The translations under genes and the position numbers were made by a program. The notes beneath the pieces were generated by a model. That model had not been told where the DNA came from and ran no database searches. It worked only from the letters and a program-made list of their open reading frames with translations. Of a stretch of 43,229 nt of DNA, positions 3,001 through 25,400 are shown piece after piece. The stretch spans positions 1-43,229 of the forward strand of contig CAIQNV010000099.1 of NCBI GenBank assembly GCA_903873295.1. Direction: 5' to 3'. The DNA comes from an uncultured Elusimicrobia bacterium. GTDB taxonomy: Bacteria; Elusimicrobiota; Elusimicrobia; Elusimicrobiales; UBA9959. The stretch's first letter is position 1, and every line of letters starts with the position of its first letter.

Positions 3001-6000
3001 CCAATTCCACCTATTACCTGCGGCTGCGCGCGCTGTCGGCTGACACCCGGCACAGCGGGTATGTACAGGGCTTAAGGCTCGGCCTTGCCTCCGCGCCGAC
3101 CTGGCTGGAAGCTTTCACGCTTGGCCCCAATAATGCCGGGCTGTACTGGGACACGGCCCGCAACTCAGGCGGCCTTGCTGCCGGTGCCTGGACCGGCGCG
3201 GGCACCCTGCCGGTGGCGCGCCACGGCCACGCCGCGGCCGTCGCCGGCGATACACTGATAATATCCGGCGGCGGCAATGGTTTTATATATCAATCCGACG
3301 TCTGGTCGGCCCCGCTTTCGGTAAACGGCCAGGTAGGTGTCTGGACTGAGGGCCAGCCGCTGCCCGCCGTGCGCTACGGGCATACCTCGGCCGCGCTTAA
3401 AGGAAGGGCCTATGTTATAGGCGGCTACGACGGAACCGCGTCAAAGGCCGATGTCTGGAGCGCCCCGATAAGTTCGCGCGGCGCGGCGGGCGCGTGGATA
3501 GCCGAAACTTCACTGCCGCAGGCGGTTTACGCACATGCCTCGGCCATGTACAATAACAGGCTCTATGTGCTGGGCGGCTACGGCGCCGGCGCAAGGGCCG
3601 AGGTCTGGCAGACCCTGGTTAAAGACGACGGTACGCTGGGCGGCTGGACCGCCGCTACGCCGCTGCCGGAGGCCCGCTACTCGCACGCGGCCGCGCTTTC
3701 GCTTTCGACCTCGGCCGCGCGGCTCTATGTAACCGGCGGCAACGATAGCGCGAGCTCGGCCCGCGCCGAGACCTGGACCGCCGAAATTAATGGCGACGGC
3801 TCGCTGTCGGCCTGGCTGCCGGTTACGCCCCTGCCCGCGCCCCTGGTGGCCCACGGCATGGCGGCAACGCCCCGCGCGCTGTTCGTGTCCGGCGGCAATA
3901 ACGGCTCCGCGGCGCGCTCGGCGGCGCTGCGCGCGACGGTGAACTCCGACGGCACTCTGGGCCCCTGGGAAACCCAGCCCTCCCTGCCGCAGGCCGTACA
4001 ATCCCACGCCCTGCTCGAGCGCGGCGGCCGCCTGCTGGCGCTGGGCGGCTACGACGGGAGCTTCTCGAAACAGGAGATGCTGCTTTCGCTTATAACCGGC
4101 ACCGAATATACGGTGTCCGTTGCCGGAGCTTCGTTCTCTTCAACGCCCTGGCAGTCGGCAGGGCGCCTTGAGATAGGCGGGCTGAAACCCAATACCTATC
4201 ACACCTTTACCGCCGCCGCCAGGAACTTCGCCGGCGTGCTCACCGGCTATTCGCCGGCGCTTTCTACCTACACTTACTCGGCGCAGCCGGGCGCCGCGGC
4301 GTTCAGCAATGTGCGGATCTCCTCCATGCAGGTGAACTGGCTGCTGAACGATAATCCGGCCGGCACCGTCTACACGGCGGAGCTTTCCAGCGACGCCGCG
4401 CATACCCTGTTGGCCTATACGCAGTCGGTGACAGTCTCTTCGGCGGTGTTTACCGGGCTGATGGATAAATACACTTTCTACGCGAGAACGCGCGCCGTGA
4501 ACAGGGCCGGCGTTTATACCGCCTGGACCGAGTTGGGCCCGGTTATCACGCGCTCCGATCCCACGCTGGACTTCACCCCGCCGACCATGACCAACAACCA
4601 GACCGGGGACAAAACCTGGCGCAGAGCCAACAACGGCGCGTATAATATCGGCTTCATGGATACCGGCGGGGCTTACCTGGACAGGTTCCAGATAAAAGCT
4701 TCCACCAAAAGCGGCGGCGCCGGCCCGTTCAGCTTCGATTGGTCCGACATGGCGACCGATATCAACGACAGTTTTTATCCCGCCGGCTGGTCGCTGACAC
4801 CCGAGTATTGGGCGCTGCTCCAGCCCGGGACCAATTATATTTCAGTGCGCGTCTTTGACGGCAACTCCAACTCAAGTTCCACGGTGGACGCGTTCTACAT
4901 TCTAAAAGATACTACCATGCCGGTCATCACCGATAACCAGGCGGGCGAAACCGCCTGGCGCATGGACGACGCGGGCGCGGTCTACGACGTGGACTTCCAC
5001 GACGCGCTGTCGGGCCTTGCCGCGATAGAATACAGCGCCAGCACCACCCCGGCCTCGGGCAGCGCGGCAACGCTGGGCTGGAGGCCGATAAGCGCGCTCG
5101 CGCAGGGGACCTCTTCCTACACGGCGAACTGGGGGGTAGATTTCGCGGCGCTGGCCAACGACGCCACTAACTATGTCTCCGTGCGGGTCTGGGACCTGGC
5201 CGGCAATACGGTCACCGTTTCGGGCCTGGATGTTTTCAAGATACTTAAGTATGTAAGCGGGCCCGAGGCGGCCATAACCCAGCCCGCCTGGCCTTATCAA
5301 GCTGTAGCGGGCGTGATAACCGGCAACACTTCGGACGCGCGGTCGCATACCTTAAAGGGCACCGAGTTGAGCTTTAAAGACCTCTCGGTGGAGCGCTATT
5401 GGAACGGCGCTGCCTTCCTTGCGCCCTCGCCGATGTGGTGGCCCGTCTCGGGCGGCGCCTCCTGGAGCTTCGCGCCCGGCATACCGTGGCTAGAGGATTT
5501 AAAGTACCAGGTGGTGGCGCGCTCAAGCGATGTGGCGGGGAATTATTCCCTAGTCTATTCCACCAGCGAGTTTACCTTCGACTCCCTGAAGCCGGTGCTG
5601 ACTTCGCTGCTGCCGGCGGACGGCGGCACGATCGATTCCCTGCACGAGTTCTCCGGCCTGGCCTCGGACGCCTCGGGGCTGTCCGGCCTGGCCCTACGGT
5701 TAAAGCGGCTCTCGGACGAGAAATGGTGGGACTTCAACGCCGACACCTGGACCGTGGCCGGTTCGAGCGCGGCGGTAACGGCGGCGGCCGGCTGGTCTTA
5801 CACGCCCGGTGAGCTGTTAAAAGCCTCGCTCGAAAGCCAGATCGGCTATTTCTTCACGCTTTATGCCGCCGATAATTCCTACCCAGCCAATGTTTCGCAG
5901 TTCGGCGTTTACGGCTCCAGTTTTGCCTTCCTGGACGATACCCCGCCGGCGGCGATAGCCGACTTCACCGCTTCCAGCGGCAGCGCGCCGGGCAATATAA

Positions 6001-7133
6001 ACCTCGCCTGGACCGCCCCCGGCGACGACGGCCCGGCCGGGATAATACTTTACGGCCAGTACCGGGTGCAGCATTCCACGATAGCCGCCCTGGTCTTCAG
6101 CACGGCCGACGCGCAGACGGCCGAGGATTTTACCCTGGTCGCCGCCGGGTCCGCGCGCTTCAAAGAGCTCACCTCGCTGCTGCCCGGCCAGCTCTATTAT
6201 CTGCGCGCCTGGACCAGGGACGACGCCGGCAACTGGTCGGGGCTTTCGAACGGCGCCACCGTGCAGGCCACGCCCTACCCCGAAGTGATAAGCGGCCATG
6301 TTATGAAGGTCTCCAGCGAGGGTATAACCGGCGTGCTGGTGGAGGCGTTCGACACGGCGGGCGCGCTGCAGGGCTCGGTCTTCACTCTGGACGACACCAG
6401 CGGCACCTATGTGCTCAGCCACCTGCCCCTGAGCGGCTACAAAGTGCAGGCCACCTGGTCGGCGGAAGATATTATAAGCTCCGTGGGCACGGACGGCGTA
6501 ACGCTGGGCTCTAAAGACGTCGATTTTACGCTGGCTATAAACTATGAGCTGGGGAGCATAGGCGGGCAGCTGACCGGCTATAATGTTTCAAGCTATAAGT
6601 CTCAGGCCGCAAGCCGGGGAGCGAAAGCTTCGGCTGCGGGCGCGGCTTATGTGGAGCTTTACCAGCGGAACCGGCTTATAGCTACGGCGCCGGTGGACGC
6701 TACGGGGAAGTTCCTTGTAAAGAATTTGCTGCCGGGTAAGTATACCCTTAAAGTACCCGACGCTAACGGCGGGACCAAAGAGCTTGCGGTCACCCTGAAG
6801 GCCGGCCAGGCGCTTATAATAAGCCCGCTCGGCGAGCTGCTTAAAAAGGATAAGATTTACGCCTATCCTAACCCGGCCGGTAAGACCGTTATTTTCCATA
6901 TTGAAAGCGACCAACTGGCGCTGGTTAAGCAGGTGACGGTGTTCGATATTACCGGCAGGACCATAAAGGAATTGAATGACGCCGATTTCGGCACAGGGGC
7001 AGGTACCTGGGAAGCTGAGTGGAACATCCCGTCCAAGGTGGCCCCGGGCGTATACATCTACGCCGTCCGCGTCAAATTCGAAGCGACCGGCGAGTACAAA
7101 AAGATAATAAAAAAGTTCGCGATAATTAAATAA
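1..7133 (+). CDS. Giant secreted Kelch/FN3 protein with T9SS-like C-terminal domain (5' end outside window)
   Basis: The reading frame is open from base 3, so the true start and any signal peptide lie before the window. Three Kelch-type beta-propeller blocks are visible at about nt 1-720, 1555-2400 and 3180-4090. In the first two, units of about 48 residues carry the pattern NEEYDP..NTW.TK..MPTAR followed by GVIGGKLYAVGG. FN3 domains (PNTTYYF / STYTLA pattern) lie between the blocks. Ig-like modules follow at about 4570-5950 (TDNQ.G....W), then an FN3-like module to about 6280, two carboxypeptidase-regulatory-like modules (about 6283-6840), and a terminal YPNPAGKTV..GVYIYAVR..KKFAIIK domain (6850-7133). 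That last domain resembles FlgD-Ig / type IX sorting domains. The role is probably cell-surface adhesion or glycan binding, which is inference; no catalytic motif was recognised. The C-terminal third is paralogous to the gene at 16418-28051. Confidence 0.9.
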   Translation, partial: YDPASNTWATKAVMPTARYGLTAGVIGDKLYAVGGYNGSLLDTNEEYDPTANTWTTKAVMPTARRHLSSGVIGGKLYAVGGGLEDGSNYFNANEEYDPASDTWATKTVMPIAHWWGSACVVGGKLYAVGGFNGSAFLNTNQEYNPVLNTWSTKSVMPTARDGLSAGVVGGKLYAVGGDNGSSLPSANEEYDPASNTWATKAVMPILQDGLSVGVIGGRLYAVGGTPNDLSPIDNNNEYDPGVAAAFTALTPNTQYSFKAKGRNAIGAETDEGPVVSTYTLAAPLAAAGVFKVYTTSVSVNWTAIGGTNGYTVRAVSGSDGAALSSSTSDGNVGSLLLNEMSGNTTYYFQVGTLNGNGVANYINAGATVTLANTPTALPAAAVTYNSITAAWSASGNAGDTPYTAEISTNAGHSPVLVSSVTANTSIMFTGLPAANTSYYLRVNALNRAGSPTDWVSLGSTMTLVETPATVYFDEVFSNSITASGYAATPAFTGLETGLSGVALAMNNAYKPWRNGNKWTTKTPMPTARYGMAVGVIGGKLYAVGGGLQDGSNYFNANEEYDPVANTWATKAVIPTARYGLAAGVIGDKLYAVGGYDGSSLLNSNEEYDPASNTWATKAVMPTARRHLSVGVIGGKLYAVGGGLGSGVTNTNEEYNPASNTWTTKMVMTKARWWGSACVVGDKLYVVGGSDGDTPFDTNEEYDPATNAWQTKAAMPTARSGMAAGVLGGKLYAVGGWNGSSSLPANEEYDPVANAWVAKTAMSTPRRSLSAGVIGDRLYAVGGTPDDLSPMDNNNEYDPGVGSSFTALLPNTQYFFKAKTRNQLGVEGPESAIVSTYTLAAVSLPAGGAVFAEVYSSTLTVNWSSGTAAGGFNGPGASYKIQMSSTADFIPVILASTTYNLALTTYGLSPNTTYWFKAQALGSNGAGSSEFVLGSTVTLPVPPVLTGYTLWASSAAVTWGANNNAAGTRYQCDFSTDPAFAPVAVSYSTGSLQLTTNDLIPNSTYYLRLRALSADTRHSGYVQGLRLGLASAPTWLEAFTLGPNNAGLYWDTARNSGGLAAGAWTGAGTLPVARHGHAAAVAGDTLIISGGGNGFIYQSDVWSAPLSVNGQVGVWTEGQPLPAVRYGHTSAALKGRAYVIGGYDGTASKADVWSAPISSRGAAGAWIAETSLPQAVYAHASAMYNNRLYVLGGYGAGARAEVWQTLVKDDGTLGGWTAATPLPEARYSHAAALSLSTSAARLYVTGGNDSASSARAETWTAEINGDGSLSAWLPVTPLPAPLVAHGMAATPRALFVSGGNNGSAARSAALRATVNSDGTLGPWETQPSLPQAVQSHALLERGGRLLALGGYDGSFSKQEMLLSLITGTEYTVSVAGASFSSTPWQSAGRLEIGGLKPNTYHTFTAAARNFAGVLTGYSPALSTYTYSAQPGAAAFSNVRISSMQVNWLLNDNPAGTVYTAELSSDAAHTLLAYTQSVTVSSAVFTGLMDKYTFYARTRAVNRAGVYTAWTELGPVITRSDPTLDFTPPTMTNNQTGDKTWRRANNGAYNIGFMDTGGAYLDRFQIKASTKSGGAGPFSFDWSDMATDINDSFYPAGWSLTPEYWALLQPGTNYISVRVFDGNSNSSSTVDAFYILKDTTMPVITDNQAGETAWRMDDAGAVYDVDFHDALSGLAAIEYSASTTPASGSAATLGWRPISALAQGTSSYTANWGVDFAALANDATNYVSVRVWDLAGNTVTVSGLDVFKILKYVSGPEAAITQPAWPYQAVAGVITGNTSDARSHTLKGTELSFKDLSVERYWNGAAFLAPSPMWWPVSGGASWSFAPGIPWLEDLKYQVVARSSDVAGNYSLVYSTSEFTFDSLKPVLTSLLPADGGTIDSLHEFSGLASDASGLSGLALRLKRLSDEKWWDFNADTWTVAGSSAAVTAAAGWSYTPGELLKASLESQIGYFFTLYAADNSYPANVSQFGVYGSSFAFLDDTPPAAIADFTASSGSAPGNINLAWTAPGDDGPAGIILYGQYRVQHSTIAALVFSTADAQTAEDFTLVAAGSARFKELTSLLPGQLYYLRAWTRDDAGNWSGLSNGATVQATPYPEVISGHVMKVSSEGITGVLVEAFDTAGALQGSVFTLDDTSGTYVLSHLPLSGYKVQATWSAEDIISSVGTDGVTLGSKDVDFTLAINYELGSIGGQLTGYNVSSYKSQAASRGAKASAAGAAYVELYQRNRLIATAPVDATGKFLVKNLLPGKYTLKVPDANGGTKELAVTLKAGQALIISPLGELLKKDKIYAYPNPAGKTVIFHIESDQLALVKQVTVFDITGRTIKELNDADFGTGAGTWEAEWNIPSKVAPGVYIYAVRVKFEATGEYKKIIKKFAIIK

Positions 7134-7302: not shown

Positions 7303-8007
7303 ATGCAGACACTAACAGAAGCTATCTGGCAGTTGAAACCACTCGGCGGCCTTTTTGACGAGGCGGTGGTTGTCACCCGTTTCCCGGGCGAAACACCCGC
7401 CGCGCGCCGCAATCTTGTCTATAGGGCCGCACTGGCCGGCGAGATCGCGATACTGAGGCGCGGGCTTTATGTACTGGCCGTACCCTTCCGGCAAGCGGCG
7501 CTGGAGCCCGCGGTGCTGGCACCCATGCTCTATGGGCCAAGTTATCTGAGCTTTGAAAGTGCTCTTCGCTTTCACGGGTTGATCCCCGATGTTGTGCAGA
7601 ACGCCGCCGCCGCTACGAGCCGGCGGTCCCGCGTGTTTGATACGGCGCTTGGCCATTTTACATTTACGACCGTGCCCGTTAACGTATTAATGGCCGGCGT
7701 GCGGATAGTCACCTTTGAAATCGGAAGTCAAACCGTAACGGGGCTTGTAGCTTCGCCGGCAAGGGCGATCGCCGATCTTGTCTATACGCGCCGGGAAGTC
7801 AGCTGGAAAAATGATGGCCGGCGGTTTTTGGAAGAATCGATGCGCATTGACCGGGACGAATTGGCTGCGAAGCTCCGGCCGGAAGAGCTTGAGGCGACGC
7901 TGGCAACGTTCCGCCATCGCCGGGTGCGAGCTTTCATTGAAGGCTTGCGGCTTTCACTCGCCCGCCCGCCTAAGACCGGCCGTAATAAAAAAGGGAAACC
8001 CCGATGA
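7303..8007 (+). CDS. abiEi: AbiEi-family antitoxin / transcriptional regulator of a type IV TA system
   Basis: A 234-residue protein. It carries the family signature YGPSYLSFESALRFHGLIPD (about residues 80-100), preceded by an N-terminal winged-helix-like region (LVYRAALAGEIAILRRGLYVL). A later segment LVASPARAIADLVYTRR is also typical of the family. The length is close to other AbiEi-type regulators. Its stop overlaps the start of the next gene by four bases (ATGA, 8004-8007), so the two are translationally coupled. Family knowledge: AbiEi counteracts the AbiEii nucleotidyltransferase without binding it directly, and represses the operon. The C-terminus is basic (PKTGRNKKGKPR). No strong Shine-Dalgarno precedes the ATG. 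Identification rests on motifs only. Confidence 0.85.
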   Translation: MQTLTEAIWQLKPLGGLFDEAVVVTRFPGETPAARRNLVYRAALAGEIAILRRGLYVLAVPFRQAALEPAVLAPMLYGPSYLSFESALRFHGLIPDVVQNAAAATSRRSRVFDTALGHFTFTTVPVNVLMAGVRIVTFEIGSQTVTGLVASPARAIADLVYTRREVSWKNDGRRFLEESMRIDRDELAAKLRPEELEATLATFRHRRVRAFIEGLRLSLARPPKTGRNKKGKPR

Positions 8008-8855
8008 ACATCATCGAACAAAAGCTTAAGGACTATCGCCCTTCCACCCCCGCAGAGCAGGAAGTGGCTTTGGTTGAAATTGTGCAGCAATTGATCTTGT
8101 TCGGCCTGGCACGGACGGGGTTCTTTACCGGCGCCGCGTTTCATGGGGGCACCTGCCTGCGGATCATGTTCGGTATGAGAAGATTTTCGGAAGATCTGGA
8201 TTTCGTTCTGAAAGCTCCGTCGGATAGCTTTTCCTGGGAGGCTTATTTCCCCACAGTCCTTGCCGAGTGCCGCGCGTTCGGCATAGAGCTGGAGATCAAG
8301 GACCGGAAAAATACGACAGGTGCGGTAAAATCGGCGTTCCTTAAAACGGACTCGATAGGAAAAGTGCTTCTGGCGGCGATCCCGTTTTCCCGCCAGAGTA
8401 TGCGGAAAATCGCCATTAAGCTGGAGATAGATACAAATCCCCCGCTTGGCAGCGGGTTCGAGTCGCGGTTCCTTGGCTTCCCGGGGCCTGCCGCCGTCAC
8501 AGTACAGGATCTGTCATCGGGATTTTCCGGCAAACTGCACGCGCTTCTCTGCCGCTCCTATGTTAAAGGGCGCGATTGGTACGATCTCCTGTGGTATGCC
8601 GAGCGCGGCGCGGCGCCCAATCTTAAACTGCTGGGCAATGCCCTCCGCCAGACCGGCCCATGGGAAGGACGCCGGGTCAGCCTCGACTCAGCCTGGATAG
8701 TTGAAGAATTGCGGCGCAAGATCAGCGGTATAGATTGGGGCGCAACGCAACGGGATGTGGCCCGGTTCGTGCCGTCAGCGGAGCAAAAGGGCTTGGAACT
8801 CTGGAGTAAGGCTTTGTTTTTGAATGCCGTGGAACGTTTGAGCAGGTCGTGGTGA
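8004..8855 (+). CDS. abiEii: AbiEii-family nucleotidyltransferase toxin
   Basis: A 283-residue protein with the AbiEii/AbiGii motifs in order. Motif I is GGTCLRIMFGMRRFSEDLDF (residues 48-67), with the paired catalytic-type acids D64 and D66. Then come KLEIDTNPP (139-147) and K177, and finally VKGRDWYDLLWY (187-198). AbiEii toxins are DNA polymerase beta-like nucleotidyltransferases (DUF1814) that arrest growth; related MenT toxins modify tRNA. All recognisable motif residues are present, so the toxin looks intact. It overlaps abiEi by four bases. The pair sits between unrelated surface genes, beside repeat copies at 7193 and 8863, which is consistent with acquisition as a small cassette. The roles in phage defence or stabilisation are inferred from the family. 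Confidence 0.9.
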   Translation: MNIIEQKLKDYRPSTPAEQEVALVEIVQQLILFGLARTGFFTGAAFHGGTCLRIMFGMRRFSEDLDFVLKAPSDSFSWEAYFPTVLAECRAFGIELEIKDRKNTTGAVKSAFLKTDSIGKVLLAAIPFSRQSMRKIAIKLEIDTNPPLGSGFESRFLGFPGPAAVTVQDLSSGFSGKLHALLCRSYVKGRDWYDLLWYAERGAAPNLKLLGNALRQTGPWEGRRVSLDSAWIVEELRRKISGIDWGATQRDVARFVPSAEQKGLELWSKALFLNAVERLSRSW

Positions 8856-8893: not shown

Positions 8894-9535
8894 ATGAAAA
8901 ATATTAAGCCAAGTAAAAGTTTTTTGGGGCTGTGCCTGATCTTGGGCGCTTTAACTACCGCGTTCGCGGAGGACGCGGAAATTAAACTGAACTCAATTGA
9001 CGGAGCGACGAAACTTGTCATTCAGGATAAGACAGTGAAGACTGTCATCAGTTTCGATTCCGCCGGGAACATGGTAACTCTCGGGACCGCCACGATTACC
9101 GGTTCGGAGTTCTCGGTGGGTGGTTCCACCTTCGTGATTAAGAGCGGCAATGTGGGTATCGGGACAACGGGCCCTGCTGCCCGGCTTGATGTTGCCGGCA
9201 CCGCGAATATGACCACACTCTCAATTGGAGGCACGGCAATTATCGCAACAGCGGCGGAATTAAATTTTATTAACGGAGTAACCAGCGCTATCCAGACACA
9301 GTTTGCCGCGAAGGCCAATCTGGCTTCGCCTGCATTCACCGGCAATGTGACTATGCCCGGGACAGGCATCTGGAACAGCTCCGGCAATGTTGGGATTGGG
9401 ACGACAGCTCCGGGCTACAAGCTGGAAGTAGCCGGGAATCTCGGGATAAAAGCGAACGGAACGAATACCGGGGAGTTGAGAGTAGGCTACACAGCTACGG
9501 CCCCGGCCGGTTATTACGCGGTCTTTGCGCCTTAA
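8894..9535 (+). CDS. Small secreted protein, short paralogue of the DUF1566 proteins without the DUF1566 domain
   Basis: A 213-residue protein with a signal peptide (MKNIKPSKSFLGLCLILGAL...FAED). The next 90 residues match the N-terminal modules of the genes at 12971 and 14827: DAEIKLNS.DG.TKL..QDK, then GSEFSVGGST and GNVGIGTT.PAA.LDV. The second half (AELNFINGVTSAIQTQF, SPAFTGNV, then another GNVGIGTTAP) resembles tail-fibre-like trimeric repeat proteins. It ends abruptly at AGYYAVFAP, with no C-terminal binding domain. It could therefore be a truncated relic or simply a short structural protein. Surface location is inferred from the signal peptide. Confidence 0.7.
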   Translation: MKNIKPSKSFLGLCLILGALTTAFAEDAEIKLNSIDGATKLVIQDKTVKTVISFDSAGNMVTLGTATITGSEFSVGGSTFVIKSGNVGIGTTGPAARLDVAGTANMTTLSIGGTAIIATAAELNFINGVTSAIQTQFAAKANLASPAFTGNVTMPGTGIWNSSGNVGIGTTAPGYKLEVAGNLGIKANGTNTGELRVGYTATAPAGYYAVFAP

Positions 9536-12961: not shown

Positions 12962-12970
12962 GTGGAGAAT

Positions 12971-14797
12971 ATGAAGAAAACGATGGCGGTTAAGGGTCTT
13001 TTGGGGCTGTGCCTGGTTTCAGGCGCTGTGAGTCACTCATTTTCGGCGGACGCGGAAATAAAGATGGTTTCAAACGACGGGTCTGATAAATTCCTCATCC
13101 TTGATAAGGACCGGAAAATCGCCGCCAGTTTTGATTCGGACGGAAACAGCAGATTTAGCGGAACTGTCACGGTCGCCGGTTCACAATTTTCGGTAGGCGG
13201 CTCAACGCTTGTTGTTGCCGGCGGCAAAGTCGGCATCGGGGTTACAGCTCCGGCCTCTCTGCTGGAAGTTAACGGCGCCGTAAGGGTAGGGAACTATACG
13301 ACCGCGGCAAGGCCTTTGGCGACCTCCTCGAATAAAGGCGCTTTTATTTTTGACACGGATATTGGAAAGCCCTATGTGTCAAACGGCTTGGTCTGGAAAG
13401 CTCTTGATAGTGAAATTGAAGAGGTGAAACTGAATTCGAACGACGGCTCAACAAAATTGATAGTTCAGGATAAAGACGCCGGCACTGTTTTCGGCGTAGA
13501 TTCAACCGGGAACGCCGTAATTGCCGGGACCGCCGCGGTGGCCGGTTCGGAATTTTCCGTAGGCGGCTCTCTGCTGGCGGTAAAAGACGGCAAAGTCGGA
13601 ATAGGGACAACGGCGCCGGCCGTCGCGCTGGACGTAAACGGCGCGGTAAGAGTAGGCAACTATACAGCCGCGGCAAGACCTTTGGCGACAGCCGCGAATA
13701 AAGGCGCTTTTATTTTTGATACGACCGCAGGGAAGCCGTATGTGTCGAACGGAACGGTTTGGAAACCCCTGGATACCGATTTCGACAGCGACGGGATAAC
13801 CGACGCGATAGATGTTAACGACAATAACGCCGCAGACGCCACCGCCGTTGCGGCTGACGCGTTAGCCGGCAAAACATTTTATGCGGGCGGGGCGGCCAAA
13901 ACCGGGAATGTGCCGACGGGCGCCAATGTAACAGGCGGCAACGGCTTAATTACCTTTACGATCCCCGACGGTCTTTATTCCGGCAGCAAGACAGCCACCG
14001 CCGTGGACGCTAATCTGGCGGCTGAGAACATTAAAAGCGGTGTTACCATCTTCGGTGCGGCGGGCATATTCACTGCCGGCGCCACGGCGGCGGCGGGGGA
14101 TATCCTAAGCGGTAAAACGGCGGGGGTAAGCGGAAGCCTGATCACCGGGAACGTGCCGGCCGGCGCCAATGTGTCGGGCGGCAACGGCTTAACGACTTTT
14201 ACGATCCCCAACGGGCTCTATTCCGGCAGCAAGACAGCTACGGCTGTGGACGCTAATCTGGCGGTAGGGAACATTAAAAGCGGCACTACCATCTTCGGCG
14301 CGGCGGGCACTTATACAGCGACGGGCCATTATCTGCCTGACACGGAGCAGTCCGTCAGTTATGCCTCCATATTTGACGATGACGCCGATTATGCGCCGGC
14401 GCTTAGCCAACCAAGCTACACGGACAATGGAAACGGGACCATAACCGATAACAGGACGGGGCTCATATGGTTGAAAGATCCTGAGGCTACAGTCGTAAAC
14501 TCGACTTATACCTGGACGAATGCAATAGCAGCCTGCGAGACTTTGAGTTATGTTTACAACGATTGGCGGCTGCCGAATATTAGAGAGCTTGAGAGCATTG
14601 TGGATTATGGCACAGCGGCTTCAGCTAAAATAAACGCGACGTATTTCCCCAACACGCAGGGAGATTATTACTTATCATCCACCACTTATACGCCCAATAC
14701 CGCCAGCGTGTGGTTCGTGCTCTTCAGTAATGGCTATGTGAGCTTCTTCAGTAAAGGCGGCGCCGGCCGCGTCCGCTGCGTCCGCGCCGGCCCATGA
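12971..14797 (+). CDS. Secreted modular protein with C-terminal DUF1566 (Lcl_C-like) domain, paralogue 1
   Basis: A 608-residue protein. I chose the ATG at 12971 rather than an in-frame GTG at 12962, because it aligns with the MKK starts of its paralogues and the GTG lies in the ribosome-binding region (GTGGAG). The signal peptide ends near HSFSA. Two copies of a roughly 120-residue module follow (about 27-146 and 150-267: GSEFSVGGS, KVGIGTTAP, NGAVRVGNYT, NKGAFIFDT, KPYVSNG.VWK). Next is an Asp-rich TSP3-like stretch (DFDSDGITDAIDVNDNN, 270-286). Two GANV.GGNGL..FTI..GLYSGSKTATA repeats follow (about 318-450). DUF1566 occupies about 483-606 (YTDNGNGTITDNRTGLIWLK, DWRLPNIRELESIVDYG, VRCVRAGP). 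DUF1566 is related to C-type-lectin-like folds, so a surface ligand-binding role is likely. The final 30 codons look like a hypervariable segment. Confidence 0.85.
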   Translation: MKKTMAVKGLLGLCLVSGAVSHSFSADAEIKMVSNDGSDKFLILDKDRKIAASFDSDGNSRFSGTVTVAGSQFSVGGSTLVVAGGKVGIGVTAPASLLEVNGAVRVGNYTTAARPLATSSNKGAFIFDTDIGKPYVSNGLVWKALDSEIEEVKLNSNDGSTKLIVQDKDAGTVFGVDSTGNAVIAGTAAVAGSEFSVGGSLLAVKDGKVGIGTTAPAVALDVNGAVRVGNYTAAARPLATAANKGAFIFDTTAGKPYVSNGTVWKPLDTDFDSDGITDAIDVNDNNAADATAVAADALAGKTFYAGGAAKTGNVPTGANVTGGNGLITFTIPDGLYSGSKTATAVDANLAAENIKSGVTIFGAAGIFTAGATAAAGDILSGKTAGVSGSLITGNVPAGANVSGGNGLTTFTIPNGLYSGSKTATAVDANLAVGNIKSGTTIFGAAGTYTATGHYLPDTEQSVSYASIFDDDADYAPALSQPSYTDNGNGTITDNRTGLIWLKDPEATVVNSTYTWTNAIAACETLSYVYNDWRLPNIRELESIVDYGTAASAKINATYFPNTQGDYYLSSTTYTPNTASVWFVLFSNGYVSFFSKGGAGRVRCVRAGP

Positions 14798-14826
14798 GCA
14801 GAGGAAGGAATTAAAGAGATAGTGTT

Positions 14827-16281
14827 ATGAAGAAACCAATGCTGATAGAAACATTTTTGGGAATGTGCCTGCTTCTGGGCATTTCTAATTACGCGTTTTC
14901 GGAAGACGCGGAGATCAAGCTGAATTCAAATAACGGGTCGACTAAATTTATTATTCAGGACAAAGACGCCGTCGCCGTTTTCAGCGCTGATTCCGATGGG
15001 AATACCGTGATCGGCGGAACGGCTACGGTCGCCGGTTCCGGTTTTTCGGTGGGCGGCTCCACGCTCGTCGTCATTAACGGCAGGGTCGGCATCGGGACAA
15101 CGGCGCCGGCCGCCGCGCTGGACGTGAACGGCGCGGTAAGGGTCGGAAACTATACTACCGCGGCAAAACCAACAGCGGCCGCCGCGAATAAAGGCGCCTT
15201 TATCTTTGATACAACAATAGGAAAGCCCTATGTGTCGAATGGAACGGTTTGGAACCTCTTCGACAGCGATTTTGACGGCGACGGAATAACCGACGCTATT
15301 GATGTTGACGACAACAACGCCGCCGACGCTACCGCCGTCGCGGCTGATGTCTTATCCGGGAGGACATTCTATGCCGGCGGAGCGGGCAGGACCGGGAGTG
15401 TGCCGGCGGGGGCCAATGTGTCAGGAGGTAACGGTTTGAAAACCTTTACCATAACCGATGGCCTCTACTCCGGCAGCAAAACAGGCACCGCCAACGATGC
15501 TCTCCTGGCGGCGGGTAATATAAAATCGGGGATCACCATCTTAGGTACGGCGGGCACTTTCACGACCGGCGCCACCGCGGCAGCCGGGGATATGTTAAGC
15601 GGTAAAACCGGCGTGGTCAACGGAAGCACAATAACCGGAAATGTGCCGGCAGGCGCCAATGTAACGGGCGGCAACGGCTTAATAACCTTTACGATCACCG
15701 ATGGTCTCTATTCCGGCGGCAAGACAGCCGCCGCCGCGGACGCGAATTTAATAGCGGCGGATATCAAAAGCGGTGTCGCTATCTTCGGCAAGACGGGCAC
15801 TTTTACCGGCAATAATATTCCGGACACCGGGCAGATTACCGGTTATGCCACCAGTGACGACGCCTCCTACGCCTCCTCCGCCCAGCCGGGTTACACGGAT
15901 AACGGCGACGGCACCACGACCGACATCAGAACAGGATTTATGTGGGCTAAAGACGGCAGCGGCGCGGGTTGTAACAGCGGAGGCACGGCTCTCTGGGAAG
16001 TAGCCGGGAATTTCTGCCAAAACCTGACTTTTGCGGGTTTCACGGATTGGCGTATGCCGAACATAAGGGAGCTTATGAGTATAACGGATTATGGCGCAGC
16101 CTCCACAGCTAAAATAAACGGGACATATTTCCCGAACACGGCGGCAGAGGCTTACTGGGCAGCCACCACTTATGTCCCCAATACTGCCTATGCATGGACA
16201 GTGGCCTTCAACGATGGCCTTGTGGGCGCCACCAGTAAGGCTGGCAGCTACTACATCCGCTGTGTGCGTGGAGGCCCGTGA
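14827..16281 (+). CDS. Secreted modular protein with C-terminal DUF1566 (Lcl_C-like) domain, paralogue 2
   Basis: A 484-residue protein starting 29 bp after paralogue 1. It has a signal peptide (MKKPMLIETFLGMCLLLGIS...FSED). There is one N-terminal module instead of two (GSGFSVGGST, RVGIGTTAPAAALDVNGAVR), an Asp-rich FDGDGITDAIDVDDNN stretch and two GLYSG repeat units. A DUF1566 domain follows (YTDNGDGTTTDIRTGFMWAK, DWRMPNIRELMSITDYG, YIRCVRGGP). It arose by tandem duplication with paralogue 1, followed by module gain or loss. The last 30 codons differ from paralogue 1 mostly at non-synonymous positions, unlike the conserved core of the domain. Likely a surface-displayed binding protein; the ligand is unknown. 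Confidence 0.85.
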   Translation: MKKPMLIETFLGMCLLLGISNYAFSEDAEIKLNSNNGSTKFIIQDKDAVAVFSADSDGNTVIGGTATVAGSGFSVGGSTLVVINGRVGIGTTAPAAALDVNGAVRVGNYTTAAKPTAAAANKGAFIFDTTIGKPYVSNGTVWNLFDSDFDGDGITDAIDVDDNNAADATAVAADVLSGRTFYAGGAGRTGSVPAGANVSGGNGLKTFTITDGLYSGSKTGTANDALLAAGNIKSGITILGTAGTFTTGATAAAGDMLSGKTGVVNGSTITGNVPAGANVTGGNGLITFTITDGLYSGGKTAAAADANLIAADIKSGVAIFGKTGTFTGNNIPDTGQITGYATSDDASYASSAQPGYTDNGDGTTTDIRTGFMWAKDGSGAGCNSGGTALWEVAGNFCQNLTFAGFTDWRMPNIRELMSITDYGAASTAKINGTYFPNTAAEAYWAATTYVPNTAYAWTVAFNDGLVGATSKAGSYYIRCVRGGP

Positions 16282-16417: not shown

Positions 16418-19400
16418 ATGGCGATAAGAGCGAAGAAAATTATATCGGCGGTCTGGCCGGCAATGGCGCTTTTGCTTTTGCCGGCAGGGCGCGCTTTTGC
16501 CGATCTTACCAATAACTTCGCCACGGTCACGCTCAACAATAACGCCGAGATCAGATTCTCAAGCGTAACGAATAACGCGGGCGGAACGCTGAACGGCGGC
16601 AGTTCAAAAATAAATGTTTTGGGGAATTGGGCGAATTCGGGCGTGTTTAACGCGGGAACCTCAACGGTCGCTTTCGAGAACAGCGCGGACTCGTCAACTA
16701 TTACCGGGAATACCGCTTTCTATTCGCTCGTTTCCGAGGCCGCGGGGAAAACAATAATTTTTGAGGCGGGCTCAGCCCAATCGGTGGCGAATGTGTTCTC
16801 GATCGTAGGTGTGCCGGGAAATCTTGTTAAATTGCGGTCGTCGGCGGACGCCGTTAAGTGGAGTATCAGTTCACCGAACGGCCCGCAAGCCGTCAGTTTC
16901 GCGGATATAAAGGATTCCGACGCCCTCCTGAATAATGTGGTCGCCGCGAATTCCTACAATTCGGGGAATAATAACGCCAATTGGATCTTCAGCGGGATGC
17001 CGGCGGACTGCGGCACGGGGTTCCTCGTTAAGAAGGACGGCACCGCCAACTATACCTCTATTCAGGCGGCGCTCAGCGCCCTGCCGGCTGCCTTAAGCGC
17101 CAATACCTGCGTAGTTATCCGGGATTCCGGGAACTATCCGGAGCAAGTTACAGTGCAGGGCTTCACAAATAACGGCTACCGGCTGAAAATAATGGCTGAT
17201 CCCGCGACGGGTTCCGCGCCGGTCGTAGATCCGCCCGGCGCTTCCTCCGCCGCGTTCCTGATAAAGAACGACAGCGTGACCGTGCAGGGGATAAATATCA
17301 TCCCCTCGAATACGGCGCCTTATGGAATTCTGGTCTCCTCGGCTTCGGTGAATATCTCAGGCGTCACGGTGCTTTCAGGCGGCAAGATCAGCGACGCGGG
17401 CATATCGCTGGCGGCTAATAGTTCCGGCGCTATAAATATTTCCTCCAATACTGTAAACGGCGCGCCCTACGGCCTGAAGATAGCCGCGCAGGCGGCCGGG
17501 ACAAGTATTATTGTAGCCTCCAACACTATTATCCCGGCTATTTCCGCCTCCTACGACACCTACGGGATCTATCTGAACGGGCTCGCTTCCGGCGCCACAA
17601 TTTACAACAACAACATTTATTACCGCAGCCCGGGCAACGCTGCGGGGCGTAAAGTTTACGGGCTTTACGGGCAAGCGGTGACAGGGTTGAATTTTGATCA
17701 TAACCGCATAAATAATCCCGGCATGGTCACCAGCGGGGACTTTGTGGCGGCTTCTTTTACCGATTCGGCGCAGGTTTCTTTTAAGTTTAACGATGTGGCC
17801 TCTACGAACACCGCGGCTTTTACCCTTTTTGAATTAACGAATTCCGGGCTTATCATCAAAAACAATATTTTCCTGGCTTCGGCCACCGCAGGCTCTTGGC
17901 TTACTTCGGATGGGGGACCGGGCAGTTTAAGCTCAGATTATAATGATTGGTACGGAGTCGAATCAAGTCTTGGGTGGAGCTTTAACGGCGGCCCGTATGC
18001 CAGCCTGGCCGCTTTCAGCGGGGCCTCGGGGCAGGACATTAATTCCATACAGGCCGACCCCGAATGGTATGCGGCTACAGCGGGCGGCGAGGACTTCCAC
18101 CCGCTAGCCGCCGAAGGGCGCTGGCTGGGCGGGGTCTGGGTCGACGACGCCGAAACTTCCCCGACGTTGAACAGCGGCGACCCGGGCGAGCCCTACGCGG
18201 ACGAGCCGCTCCCGAACGGGCTGCGGGTGAACCTGGGCTCTTACGGTAATACGGCGCAGGCGTCGCGCGCAAATCCCCCGGGCGCGGTCTGCGGCATCGG
18301 CGCTTACTGCGCGATGCAGTGCGACGTGAACCAGTCCGCGTCCAAGTTCCAGAGCATCCAATCCGCGCTTAATGCCTTAGATCACAATCTGACTTTAGAG
18401 ACCTGCGTAGTTATTATGGATGCGGCGAACTATGCCGAGCAGGTGCTGGTGCAGGGGTTCACAAATAACAATCACAGGCTCAAGATAATGGCGGACCCGG
18501 CGCTTATAACCGCTCCGAGCGTAAGCCCGCCGGTCGCGTCGGCCGCCGCTTTCCTGATAAAGAACGCCAGCGTGACCGTGCAGGGAATAAATATCATACC
18601 CGAGAACGCGGTGGCCTACGGCATAGCGGCCTCCTCGGCTTCCGTGACCGTTTCCAGCGTTAATGTGATTTCAGGCGGGTGGATAAGCGGCGCGGGCATA
18701 CAGCTTTCAAGCTACAGCGTAGTGTCCTATTCCACTATTACCGTGCAGGCCGCCGACGGCCTGCGGCTTTCCGGCTTAAACAGCGCAGTGTCTTTCAGCG
18801 CCATCGCCGGCGGCGGTGCGGGCAAATACGCGCTTTATCTCGCGGACGCCGGTTTTAACACCATTACGCGCTCACTCATAACTAATTCCGCTGGCGGCGG
18901 CGCGTACCTGGCTTATAGCGCGGAGCACAATACTATCTCCTATTCCACTATCACCGGCAGCGCCGGCGGTTATGCCGCCCTCGGCATAAGCGGTTCCTCC
19001 AACACCGTGGCGGGGTCGTATATGCAGGGCGCCTCCGCTGCGGACATCAGCGGCTCCACCGGCACGGTTATCGGAGGTAGCGTTTTTGCGGCGGTAAGCT
19101 CCGCGGGCTCCGCCCTCCGGTTCGCGGGCGGCGTGAACCTGGCGCTCTCCTCAAGCGCGTTCACCGGCGGAGCGCAGGGCGCGGGCATCTATCTTGACAC
19201 CCACAATTCCGGCGTTATAAACCTTTCTTCCAATACCATCACCGGCGGGCAATACGGGCTTAATATCGCCGCGCAGGATCCCGGGACGGAGCTTTCCATT
19301 TCCAGTCTTACCTTCCGCTCCCTTACGGCGGGCGCTACGGCCATTAACTTCCTGGGGGGGCAGTTCGTTTCTACCTTCACCGCGCTGGCGTTAAACAGCC

Positions 19401-22400
19401 GGGACATTTCCGTGAACGTGAACGCCGTTTCGCTCGGCGCCGGGTCGAGCATCACCATGAGCCGGGCGGTCGGGGCGAAGGTCGGGGCCTTTTATGAAAA
19501 TGACCCGTCGGGCTATGTCCATTGGGACCCGCTGCCCGCCGGCTGCGGCTCGGGGTTAAACGTGACCAAGGACGGGACCGGCAACTTTCTGTCCATTCAG
19601 GAAGCGGTCAACGCGGTCCCTGCCAGCCTGAGCGCCAATACCTGCGTTATCATCCGCGACACCGAGACCTATTCCGAGCAGGTAAGTGTGCGGGGCATCG
19701 CAGGCAACGGCTACCGGCTGAAGATAATGGCCGATCCCGCCTTTGTTAGCTCGGCGCCGGTAGTGAATCCGCCGGAAGGGGCGGCCGCCGCTTTCCTGCT
19801 GCTGAACGACAGCGTGACCGTGCAGGGGCTGAATATAATTTCCACCAATACAGTGACTTACGGCGTATTCGCCTCGTCGGCGGCGGTCAATATCTCAAGC
19901 GTTAACGTGATCTCAGGCGGGTGGATAAGCGGCGCCGGGATACAAATTTCCAGCCGCAGCGCGGTGTCTTATTCCAGCGTCACCGTGCAGTCTGCCGACG
20001 GGCTGCGGCTGACCGGGGCGGGCAGCGAAGTGTCTTTCAGCACTATTGCCGCCGGTGCAGCGGGGAAATACGCGCTTTATATAGCGGAGTCCGATTCAAA
20101 TACCGTGACGCGCTCCTACATCGCTAATTCCGCGGGCGGCGGCGCGAGGCTGGCTCCGGGCGCGGATAATAATACGCTCTCATATTCCACTATAACCAGC
20201 GCCGGCGGGTATGCCCTCGAGATCACGGGCAATTACGCCAACACCGCAGCCGGGTGCTATGTGCGGGGCTCTACGGCGGCTTATATCTCAGGTTCCACCG
20301 GTACTATCGCCGGGGGAAATATCTTTGTGGCCGCCGACGCCGCGGGCGCGGCCCTCCGGCTGGCCGGCGGCAGCCTGAACACGACGGTCTCTTCTAACAC
20401 GTTCACCGGCGGGGCGCAGGGCGCGGGCATTTATCTCGACGCAGGCAATGCCGGCAGAATAGAGCTTTCCTCGAACACGGTGACCGGCGGGCTCTACGGG
20501 CTTAATATCGCCGCGCAGAAGGCCGGCGCTGAGCTTAAGGTTTCCAGCCTGACTTTCAGCTCGCTCACGGAAGGGGGGACGGCCGTAAACTTCCTGGGAG
20601 GGCAATTTGTTTTAACTTTAACAGCCGTCGCTTTCAATAACGCGAACATCGGCGTAAATGTAAGCGCCGGTCCGCTTGAAGCAGGCTCGCGCATTACGAT
20701 GAGCCTCCCGGCCGGACCGAAGGCGGGGGTCCTGTATGAAAATGACCCGTCGGGCTATATCGATTGGGGCGCGCTGCCGGGCGACTGCGGCGCGGGTTTA
20801 AACGTGGCCAGGAACGGAACCGGCAATTACAGGTCCATCCAGGCGGCGGTAAGCGCGGTGCCCGTTAACCTGAGCACCACCACCTGCATAGTTATCCGGG
20901 ACACTGAAACCTATTCCGAGCAGATCACCGTGCGGGGCTTCGCTAATCACGGCTACCGGTTATTGATAATGGCGGATCCGACCTTCGTGAGCTCGGCGCC
21001 GGCCATTAATCCGCCCGCGGGTTCAGGCGCGGCTTTCCGGCTTCTCAACGACAGCGTCACCGTGCAGGGGATAAATATTATCTCCACCAATACCGTGGCT
21101 TACGGTATTCTGGCCTCGTCGGCTTCCGTGACTATCTCAAGCGTTAATATTATTTCGGGCGAGATGATCAGCGGCGCGGGCATCTCGGTTTCGAGCCGCA
21201 GCCTGGTGGCCTATTCGAGTATTACGGTACAGGCCGCCCACGGTCTTCAACTGACAGGTTCGAACAGCGAAGTGCTTTTCAGCACGATGACCAGCAAGGC
21301 CGCCGGGTACGCCGGGCTCTACATCACGGGCGGTTCGGCCGGCGCCCTGTATAAGTCCTATATAGAGGGCTCGACCGCGGCCTATATTTCAGGCTCAGAC
21401 GGGATCGTTCTTCAGGAAAGCGTCTTTGTTTCCAACGATACCGCGGGCCATGCCCTCAGGCTTGCGGACGGCAGCGCGGACCTGAAGCTCTCTTCAAGCA
21501 CGCTCACCGGCGGGGCGCAGGGCGCGGGCATCTATCTCGACGCCGGCAATTCGGGCGCGCTGGAACTTTCCTCCAACACTATCACCGGCGGGCGGTACGG
21601 GCTTAATATCGCCGCGCAGTCGGCCGGGGCCGCGCTTTCCGTTGCGGGCCTGACCTTCAGTTCCCTTACGGCGGGCGCGACGGCCATAAATTTCCTGGGT
21701 GGGGAATTTGTTTCCACCTTTACGGCGGTAGCGTTCAACAGCGCCGGCATAGGCACGAATATAAACGCAAGCGCGTTGGCGGAGGGCTCAAGCGTTTACA
21801 TCCTTCTTCCCTCGGGCCAGAAGGCGGCTCAGGCGCTCGCCGACGACCCCCTCAACCGGGTGCAATGGCCCTGGCCGGCCGCGCCGTACCTTTACGCGGT
21901 TAATGAGAGCAGCATAGCCGTGGCCTATGGCGCGAACGGCGCCTCCGGCTATACGGCGGAAGCCGCTGTCGCGCCCGATTTCGCCGGCGCGCTGTCCTCC
22001 TCTACCCTTTCCCAGTCGGCCTCTCCGCTTTCCGTCTCTATCCTGTCGCCGGACACCACTTATTATCTGCGCGCGGGCGCGCTTTGGGACCAGGCCACCT
22101 ATTATAATCCCGTTGTGGTATTTGCCACTTCAACCCTCGCCCTGCCGCCGGCGGCCCCGGTCGTTCTGGCCGTGCAGCCTAACTCCGCCGTAGCGAGCTG
22201 GGGGGCGGTGGCGGCGCAGGGCTATCTGCTTGAAGCTTCCACCGCTTCCGCTTTCACCGGTATAGTTCTTTCTTCCTCCTCCTCCGGCCTCCAGGTCTCC
22301 ACCCTTACAGTGGGGGGACTGCTGCAGAACACCACCTACTATTTCCGCGCCGGTTCGCTGAACTGGAACAAGGTCCTTACTTACGCAGTAGCCGCCCCGA

Positions 22401-25400
22401 CTTCGACGCTGTCCGATCCCGTTACGGGGGCGCAAATAGCCGGCGTGTTCATGTCCAGCGTGGCCGTGAGCTGGCTGCCGCTGCCGGTCTCGCCTTCCAG
22501 CGCGACCTGCGAAGGCTATATGCTGGAAGCTTCCACGGACCCGTATTTCGGGGGGCTGATCTTCTCCACCGCTACCGCCGACTCACAGACGGCCGACCTG
22601 GCCCTGACCGGGATGGTTTCTAATATACTGTATTATTTCAGGGCAGGAACTTTGAACTGGAACGGCGTTCCGAATTACGCTTTGGCCGTCAGCACCGAAA
22701 CCCCCGATATAACGCCGCCGGATATTTCTACGGGCGCAGCCGCCTATCAGTCAGGCAGCCCGGACGGCATAAGGCTGTTCTGGACCGCGCCGGGCGATAA
22801 CGGCTATCTCGGCCCGCTGACGCCGGGCAGCGAGTTCCGCGTGCAGTGGAGCACGTCCGCGCCGGAGGCGGTGGACTGGAGCACCGCCGCCGCGCAGGTT
22901 ATTATAACCACCGGGCCGGTGGAGCAGGGCCTTACCGTTTCCACCGCGATCTTCGGCCCGCCTTCCGGGCGGACGGCCTATTTCAGGGTGTGGGCGGCCG
23001 ACGAGAAGAGCCAATGGTCGGTGATGTCGGCCACGTTCGCCGCTTTTGTCTCGCCGTTCTCGTTCGAGACGGTGGACGGCGCCTCCGCCGATGTCGGGGT
23101 TCAGGCCTCGCTGGCGGCGGGCAGGGACGGAAGCCTGCAGGTCAGCTACGGCGACCTCACCGCGAAGACTTTGAAATACGCGAAATGGAACGGCGCGTGG
23201 AATATTTCGACTATCGCCTCCGACGGCGAGAGCGAAGGGCATTCCAGCCTGGCGCTGGACGGCGGCGGGGAGCCTCAAATCTCCTATCTTAAAGGCAGCC
23301 CGTACGATGACCTGGGGTATGCGCGGTGGGACGGGGTAGACTGGAGCACGCAGACCGTGGATGCTCCCGGACTGACCGGGTACGATACCTCCATCAAGGT
23401 AGATGGTTTGGGCAACCCGCATATTTCCTATACGGACTTTTCTACCGCGAAACTCAGGTACGCCGAATGGGACGGCTCCGCCTGGAGCGCCGGGGACGTC
23501 GCCGACGTCGGGAACGCGGATAGCGCTTCAACTTCGCTCGACCTGGCCGCCGACGGCTCCCCGCATATCGCGTATAACAATTCCACCACCGCCAGCCTGA
23601 TGTACGCTAAGAAGACGGGGGCGTCCTGGTCGGTTTCCGCCGTAGACGCGGCCCGGGACGGCGACAGGAATATCTCCCTGGTCCTCGACAGTTCGGCGAA
23701 CGCGCATCTCGCCTACATTTCGCCCGCGGGCGCGCTGAAATACGCCGAATGGGCCGGCTCCTGGCAGAAGACCGAGATCGAGACGGAGATAGACGCCGCG
23801 CAGCCGTCCATCGCTTTGGACGGGGCCGGCCGGCCGCATATTTCATATTATGACCAGGCGCTTAAAATACTTAAATATGCCCGCTACGACGGAGTTATCT
23901 GGAGCACCGGCACAGTGGATTCGGCCGGAGATGAAGGCTCTAACGGCTCAATAGCTTTGGACGGCGCAGGGGATATCCATATTGTCTACCGCGACGGGAC
24001 TACCGGCGATCTGAAAGCCGCGCACTGGACGGGGGCCGGGCTGCCCGCGCCGCTGGGCGGCAATGCCCGCGGACGGGCGCAGGCGCCGGACGGAATGCAG
24101 ACCGGCCTGCTTGGCTCCGCTTCCGTGCAGTGGCTCTGGACCGACCATGCCGCGAATGAAGAAGGCTACGCGGTCTATTATTCCAGCACAGGAATTGTCC
24201 CGTACGTGTTCAGCTCTTCTGTGAGCGCCGCAGCTTCCACGGGCGGGACCGGCTTCTGGTTCCAGACCGGGCTGACCCCGAACACCTCGTATCAGGCCTA
24301 CGCGGCCGCGTACAATGAAGGCGGGGTGGCGGTTTCAAGTCCGGCTTTAGTGTATACGCTGGCGGAGGCCCCGGCCAGCCTGGAAGCCGCTAAAATCTAT
24401 ATCTCGAGCGTAGTCGCCGCCTGGCCGCCCGGAGCTAATCCCGCGGGGACGAATTATCTGGCCGAGCTCTCCTCTAAAGCGGTTTTCACCCCCAGCGACA
24501 GCTACGGCACTACGGGGAGCTCGGCCCCGTTCGGCGGGCTCGCCGCCAATACCACGTATTATTTCCGCGTGAGGGCCTATAACAGTCCCGGCGTGGAGAC
24601 CGCGCCGACCGGGCCGCTCGCGGCCGTTACGCTGCCCGATCCGCCCTCGGCGCTGGGCTTTTCGGGTGTTTCTTATTCGAGTCTTACCGTGTCCTGGGCC
24701 GGCGGCCTGAATTCCCCGGAGACGCGCTATTATGCCCAGGTCGGCTTCGATCCCGGCTTTACGTCGGGGGCCTCCACTATCACCTACGCTTTCAGCCATA
24801 CTTTCGGGGAGCTCTCGCCTAACACCACCTATTTTGTGCGGGTTAAGGCTATAGGCCTGCTGGGCGCCGAAACCGTCTACGCGCAGTTCGGCTCCACCAT
24901 AACCACTTCGGTCACGCCGATAGCGACGCTCCCGTGCGCGGTCAGCACAAATACGGTAACGGGCTATTGGTCCTATAACGGCAATCCACCCGGAACCCGC
25001 TACCTGGCGCAGATCTCCACGGACAATTTCAACACAGTACAGGCCTCCTCGGAAACTGTGAACGACTATGCGCTGTTCGGCGGGCTGACGCCAAATACGA
25101 CTTACTACCTGCGCACCGCCTCGCTTAATATCTTCGACACTCCCAGCCAATTCGCCGGGCTGCCGGAAGCGCTTACCTATGCCGCCCAGCCGCTGAAACA
25201 GGCCGATCCCTTCCCGTCGGTGAGCGCCTTTTCGGTCGCGGTGGAGTGGCTGGCCAACTTCAACCCGCCGGAGACGGAATATCTGTCCGAGGTCTCTACC
25301 GCCGCCGATTTCTCGGCCGCTAAAGTTATCGGCCCGGGCTGGGCCGCAGGGGTTTTGGTGACGGCCGTGGTGCCTGATCCGCTGACCCTTTATTATTTCC

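Follow-up and report, generated by a model that had tools for sequence, protein, structure and literature searches.

Diversity-generating retroelements (DGRs) copy a template RNA with miscopying of its adenines, and the cDNA replaces the 3' end of a target gene. Among the target proteins the domain DUF1566 is prominent: passages of a human-microbiome survey give it as the most common named DGR target domain (47 proteins) and quote an earlier survey with 7 DUF1566 and 45 FGE-sulfatase cases (PMC4159848), and an excerpt of PMC6642488 also calls it the most common target domain. Targets set apart from their cassette are described as well, as remnants without reverse transcriptase (RT) and template in Treponema denticola (passages of PMC4891356) and as remote variable proteins in cyanobacteria (passages of PMC7517822); the part of a contig-based survey at hand states that remote targets would escape it (PMC8144416). 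DGRs with DUF1566 targets and remote or remnant targets are thus already known, and the tandem pair of DUF1566 genes described here (gene 1 and gene 2) is probably a further example. It lies on contig CAIQNV010000099.1 of an uncultured Elusimicrobia bacterium, whose 43,229 nucleotides are the window analysed in this work. In the full-text literature, a search for Elusimicrobi* together with diversity-generating retroelement returned as only co-mention a fungal-microbiome paper with unrelated passages, supplements being outside the search.

The first-pass annotation of the window had proposed that the C-termini of the two paralogues are DGR variable regions. This proposal is supported by DUF1566 cassettes in two genomes of the same genus, by the colinearity of their templates with the C-termini in the window, and by a codon test at template-defined positions. 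We therefore regard the final ~105 bp of each gene as probable variable regions (VR1 and VR2) written by a DGR, for which we estimate a probability of roughly 0.8. As RT, template and Avd were sought in the own assembly and not found, the window genes are classed as DGR target genes and not as a complete DGR; they are probably a remote or orphan target pair. Gene by gene, the fingerprint in the window pair is of moderate strength, and present DGR activity on these genes is unproven.

To place the pair, 61 genomes were searched, the own genome (G000) included; DUF1566 was matched at E<=0.001 in 26 of them and the RT profile RVT_1 in 16. Two genomes of the same genus, G020 and G027, carry a DGR cassette with DUF1566 target, template and RT (Table 1). 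The G020 cassette lies on contig JAJZVJ010000172.1 (bacterium isolate SKS5.bin41); its template differs from the variable region at 14 A sites and 1 other site, and its Avd-like gene reaches 57 bits to NF033474, under the 80-bit cut-off of that model. For the G027 cassette the mismatches are 22 at A sites and 2 at others, flanks included. Both templates align codon for codon with the C-termini of the window genes. Among the matches listed, the two RTs next closest to that of G020 belong to records named Elusimicrobia bacterium, from which the genus would be placed in the Elusimicrobiota; no match to the G020 RT was found in the viral contig collection. The named RT loci (L184-L263) are the best 80 of at least 583 confirmed RT matches; by script, a template with a matching variable region was located in 60 of these 80, and by eye, counted over up to three pairs per locus, variable regions flank the template on both sides in at least 20 of the 80. 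The named loci with the RTs closest to that of G020 are linked to DUF1566 targets and come from records of many phyla.

The codon test uses the 14 columns that are Asn in both the G020 and the G027 template, so that they are set by the relatives and independent of the window. Codons ending in C or T (NNC/NNT, here NNY) were counted in an alignment of 50 rows, namely 48 DUF1566 genes and the two templates. Rows were dropped when the independent E-value was >1e-5, when the profile match ended before 114 or started after 70 (template loci excepted), or when the last 40 residues were identical to those of another row; of the DUF1566 places located, only part were fetched or full-length. All aligned test columns (13 or 14) are NNY in 21 of the 48 genes, which are mutually related and hence not 48 independent cases; four genes show a single miss, and the remaining 23 between two and nine. 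When 14 columns were instead drawn from the 30 most variable upstream columns (2000 draws), a mean of 0.07 and a maximum of 2 of the 48 genes were all-NNY. Gene 1 scores 14/14 and gene 2 13/14, and three further genes of the own genome, named here by their contigs, score 14/14 (C97), 14/14 (C135) and 5/14 (C7). Compared with the window-wide NNY rate of 59%, the counts are significant for gene 1 (p = 6e-4), gene 2 (p = 0.007) and both pooled (27/28, p = 9e-6).

The adenine mutagenesis of AAC/AAT template codons that had been suggested would leave their third base as it was, and this part of the claim holds for one of the two templates. Under a null of synonymous codons, the third base equals that of the G027 template at 12/14 columns in gene 1 (p = 0.004) and at 11/14 in gene 2 (p = 0.0045), next to 14/14 in C97 (0 of 100,000 draws), 14/14 in C135 (p = 3e-5) and 4/14 in C7 (p = 0.69). 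For the G020 template the match is not significant in the window pair, as given below, with 12/14 in both C97 and C135 (p = 4e-4 and 0.013). Genes with at least two misses (n = 23) attain no more than 9/14 for G027 and 11/14 for G020. Third bases were also compared with the other all-NNY genes. Over all codons the contrast between Asn columns and upstream appeared large (183/236 versus 222/856 for gene 1, 153/227 versus 315/940 for gene 2); this version was rejected, since selecting the reference genes for all-NNY columns had introduced a bias. The comparison was therefore confined to codons that are NNY in both genes and encode different amino acids, and the contrast shrinks: third-base identity is 183/236 (78%) at the Asn columns and 124/231 (54%) upstream for gene 1, and 153/208 (74%) and 192/314 (61%) for gene 2. 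With the 23 genes of two or more misses, identity at the Asn columns is 100/194 (52%) for gene 1 and 83/171 (49%) for gene 2.

Differences from the template are concentrated at its adenines, where the template used is that of the relative G027 and not one from the own genome. VR1 differs at 26/39 A sites and 15/66 other sites (Fisher 1e-5), VR2 at 22/39 and 11/66 (Fisher 3e-5). Such an excess with p<0.01 is seen in 19 of the 21 all-NNY genes; no gene of the group with two or more misses (n = 23) shows it as strongly as the two window genes do, and the C7 gene is the least A-biased of all 48.

A trace of a DGR in this genome is also found outside the window. The variable regions of C97 and C135 differ at 20/39 template-A sites and at only 1/66 others, while just upstream the two genes are 41% identical over 225 aligned sites (Fisher 7e-10 for A versus other sites, 1e-19 for other sites versus upstream). 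The pattern persists without the Asn third bases (1/52 other sites differ), and both genes share backbone differences from the G027 template. Equality at 65 of 66 non-A sites above an upstream identity of 41% cannot be produced by ordinary selection, and a DGR has therefore worked in this lineage; judged from their sequences, C97 and C135 carry the mark of having been written from one template. The comparison was extended to gene pairs across the family. After dropping gene pairs with fewer than 55 non-A or 100 upstream sites, 1081 pairs were kept: the 190 pairs of all-NNY genes differ on average by 0.20 at non-A sites versus 0.47 upstream, the 253 pairs from the group with at least two misses by 0.47 versus 0.48. 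Without Asn third bases the non-A means are 0.20 and 0.415, respectively. Measured in this way, the backbone of gene 1 differs by 0.27 from the all-NNY genes and by 0.38 from the 23 others, that of gene 2 by 0.20 and 0.37, so both window genes are nearer to the DGR-type backbone, a tendency more marked in gene 2. Neither has the backbone of C97/C135; VR1, VR2 and C97/C135 represent three different backbones.

Compared with each other, the two window genes say less. The 15 amino-acid differences at 14705-14773 that had been reported, with the third base kept in 10, are reproduced by our codon table; over the 36 codons from 14690 the third base is unchanged in 10 of 17 differing codons, and in the aligned C-terminal part upstream in 26 of 58. 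Two reservations made at the time are also correct, as the third base does change in five of the 15 codons and the codons past the last shared CGC differ synonymously. The latter may be answered by two types of 3' end, which would reflect two templates or age: gene 1 equals the G020 template over 21 bases, from GTC to GGC, and gene 2 is closer to G027 and to C97/C135.

A number of results weigh against a DGR origin of VR1 and VR2. The pairwise third-base excess is not significant (10/15 versus 26/58, one-sided Fisher p = 0.11; with 10/17, p = 0.23), so the window pair alone is insufficient and the signal exceeds chance only once templates and DUF1566 genes from relatives are brought in. If the amino acids are kept constant, the NNY count gives p = 0.045 for gene 1 and p = 0.086 for gene 2, the values for C97, C135 and C7 being 0.029, 0.22 and 0.998. 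One template-Asn codon of gene 2 ends in A, and the other three one-miss genes match the G027 third bases at just 7-9 of 14. The third bases of the G020 template are matched at 10/14 in gene 1 (p = 0.12) and 9/14 in gene 2 (p = 0.13), no better than in the best gene of the group with at least two misses, and when codons are required to be NNY the G027 match weakens to p = 0.033 and 0.053 (C97 0 of 50,000 draws, C135 p = 1e-4). The template-A excess is unspecific, as p<0.01 is also reached by 10 of the 23 genes that miss NNY at least twice (lowest 2e-4); a variable binding face alone thus gives some A excess, less than that of the window pair. At non-A sites the closest template is 15/66 away from gene 1 and 11/66 from gene 2, compared with 4-5/66 for C135 and C97. 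VR1 and VR2 differ from one another at 18/66 such sites, by which one shared template for both is ruled out.

To this list belongs the cassette itself. The window is contig C99 of its own assembly, which has 3.49 Mb in 157 contigs and is 89.9% complete. The first-pass annotation had pointed to the rest of the genome for a DGR RT and a template repeat, and within this assembly neither was found: PF00078/RVT_1 gave 0 matches and 0 candidates, the G020 RT gave no match, and no template was detected with VR1 or the G027 template as DNA queries, a search in which the G027 template finds that of G020 (86%) and misses the C97 variable region, so that a template below ~76-80% identity could escape. 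The Avd model NF033474 had no match in the assembly either. Apart from the window copies, matches of VR1 elsewhere in the genome are 14-37 bp long with a best E of 0.0028. Downstream of gene 1 no hairpin of 5 bp or more is present, and gene 2 is followed by a 6-bp stem only. An 11-bp hairpin starts 23 nt past the G020 target, and an 11-bp stem also follows one G003 target; however, the target of the G027 cassette is also without a long stem and stems of 9-16 bp stand behind some genes lacking the fingerprint, so that the hairpin is neither obligatory nor specific here.

If the two regions were written by a DGR, the machinery may be gone or out of sight. Close to an even chance is given to the pair being fossil, that is ancestral targets whose cassette was lost or is out of reach and which now evolve as ordinary adhesins. 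Their distance from the nearest template, the one non-NNY codon and the missing long hairpin are consistent with this, as are the target remnants of T. denticola described in passages of PMC4891356. The distribution of cassettes points the same way. At least one all-NNY DUF1566 gene is found, among the domains compared, in nine genomes (G000, G002, G003, G005, G013, G016, G020, G027 and G033), and a DUF1566 template cassette in only two of these, G020 and G027. Searches with the RVT_1 profile and the G020 RT found no RT in G000, G002, G005 and G013. The two RTs of G016 are taken as group II intron RTs, because their RVT_1 score is strong and their similarity to the G020 RT weak. G003 and G033 have DGR-like RTs, with adjoining templates (G003:C18, G033:C20) unlike DUF1566 variable regions. 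In G003:C74:12971-20853 there are five DUF1566 genes with all-NNY variable regions, the domain being internal in three; an Avd-like gene remains between two of these DGR-type targets. The contig gave no RT match, and the stretches of it that were examined showed no template. An adenine-pattern pair on that contig (score 39.5) was rejected as template, since it consists of N-terminal parts of two paralogous targets and is taken as gene duplication. However, C97 and C135 look freshly co-templated, so the lineage had an active cassette recently. Moreover, contig C135 (1-2023) breaks off within the DUF1566 domain of the following array gene, short of the variable region, so that a cassette could lie in the gap, and about 10% of the genome is missing. 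Contig G002:C296 likewise stops, at position 11390, within the DUF1566 domain of an array gene and does not reach the variable region. Both ends suggest assembly breaks caused by population variation or repeats.

It is possible, though on balance doubtful, that the window genes are live remote targets, which an unassembled cassette with one or more templates still rewrites in trans. The signs of activity in C97/C135, the loci with variable regions on both sides of the template and the remote targets of cyanobacteria (passages of PMC7517822) argue for it, but the three backbones would need up to three templates, of which none was found. Ordinary divergence of a ligand-binding face, by duplication and subsequent point mutation with positive selection and without a retroelement at work on the window pair, is unlikely: it agrees with the non-significant pairwise excess, with the A bias in 10 of the 23 genes that miss NNY at least twice and with the unmatched G020 third bases, but the pooled NNY count and the third-base identity with DGR-type genes, higher than both that upstream and that with the 23 others, speak against it, and it cannot yield the C97/C135 equality.

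For the two variable regions we propose the course that is established for DGRs. A template-repeat RNA rich in AAC/AAT codons would be copied by an error-prone RT with an accessory protein; adenines would be miscopied, and the cDNA would then replace the matching 3' end of the target gene. By this, residues in the C-type-lectin-like DUF1566 head that a stalk protein carries would be randomised, with the scaffold W.V.F..G....K....VRCVR remaining fixed. We infer that the window genes are or were targeted in trans by a cassette, which is either in the ~10% of the genome that is unassembled or lost. The window pair would have drifted since, or would have been written by templates other than that of C97/C135. 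As a tentative generalisation, which we hold at somewhat below even odds, one DGR lineage of the genus might write in trans the tips of several unlinked, dissimilar adhesins per genome, and the target arrays might persist from species to species as cassettes are gained and lost, so that genomes keep retroelement-made binding heads without the machine; in the own genome four genes are counted as such targets, the tandem window pair, C97 and C135. As this case shows, codon patterns and sister-species templates can reveal DGR-made protein diversity where a draft genome lacks RT and template. The genus offers a natural series of cassette with targets, targets only, and co-templated targets on different contigs, which allows asking how long DGR-written adhesins outlive the loss of the cassette.

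Table 1. Features of the DUF1566 gene pair in the window and cassettes of the related genomes.
Feature	Position in window	Strand	Remarks
Gene 1, stalk-repeat protein with C-terminal DUF1566/Lcl_C	12962..14797	+	611 aa from GTG; Pfam PF07603, E=6.9e-31
DUF1566/Lcl_C domain, gene 1	14435..14785	+	111.3 bits, cut-off 34.9
VR1 (gene 1 variable region)	14687..14791	+	colinear with G020/G027 template repeats
VR1 template-Asn codon starts (n=14)	14687, 14696, 14705, 14714, 14720, 14726, 14729, 14735, 14741, 14744, 14747, 14750, 14759, 14765		
Gene 2, paralogous stalk-repeat protein with C-terminal DUF1566/Lcl_C	14827..16281	+	484 aa; PF07603, E=8.6e-32
DUF1566/Lcl_C domain, gene 2	15910..16269	+	113.9 bits; model pLDDT 86.9
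VR2 (gene 2 variable region)	16171..16275	+	colinear with template repeats
G020:C143 cassette			DUF1566 target of 603 aa with related stalk, Avd-like gene of 155 aa, template, RT of 512 aa
G027:C310 cassette			target, RT of 522 aa, template

The GTG start of gene 1 is followed by an in-frame ATG, and secretion of both proteins is predicted from their N-termini. N-terminal to DUF1566 they consist of repeats, the stalk modules, and over residues 25-358 gene 2 shares 74% identity with gene 1. Stalk modules occur also in other proteins of the family, e.g., in the DGR target of G020 (39% identity), and in proteins on G027:C180 and G035:C221, two contigs with DGR-like RTs and Avd. A lectin-like DGR-target scaffold with the variable segment at its C-terminus, as had been suggested, agrees with the Pfam family Lcl_C, with an AlphaFold2 model and with Foldseek. 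The model was made for the domain of gene 2 from an alignment of 46 sequences. Its top Foldseek match is the Lcl C-terminal domain 8q4e (E=4.9e-5, TM 0.55-0.58), followed by C-type lectins with weaker matches (E 0.01 or worse); the head of gene 2 is thus predicted to have a C-type-lectin-like fold, and the template Asn positions are placed on the last strands and loops of the model. A sequence search of the same domain versus solved structures gave no match, and none was obtained for the window protein P0001 in the genome contig collection.

Around the pair, an open reading frame (ORF) of 213 aa at 8894-9535 carries a stalk module (54% identical) and, with no Pfam match, no DUF1566 head. Two very large proteins are encoded at 42-7133 (2363 aa, Kelch and fibronectin type III repeats, with a sorting-tail match below its cut-off) and at 16418-28051 (3877 aa, the end sorting-tail-like by eye). 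An AbiEii nucleotidyltransferase-like gene at 7303-8855 (PF08843, E=1e-30) and its upstream partner, which has no Pfam match, are possibly an AbiE-type toxin-antitoxin pair; nucleotidyltransferase-like ORFs were also seen by eye near the DUF1566 targets in G000:C135 and G027:C310.

Among the known systems, Mtd of the Bordetella phage BPP-1 has a C-type-lectin fold and AAY codons. This system is phage-borne with all parts adjacent, and its record lists RT, Avd, template repeat and, within the receptor-binding protein, a variable region. Next to the window pair no phage genes were noticed, no systematic search for them having been made. The Lcl C-terminal domain (PDB 8q4e), after which the Pfam family is named, is the best fold match of the gene 2 domain, and the likeness is one of fold. 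The DUF1566/Lcl_C variable proteins of DGRs in passages of PMC4159848 and PMC6642488 are alike in domain, C-terminal variable region and adenine-linked pattern; the window genes differ in their host, a member of the Elusimicrobiota, and in an own assembly in which RT, Avd and template were not found. The targets of T. denticola and cyanobacteria are described in passages of PMC4891356 and PMC7517822 as lying far from the cassette or in a genome without one, and as recognised by the similarity of their variable regions. In contrast, the window pair was recognised by the templates of other species and a codon test, and it consists of two tandem targets with different backbones.

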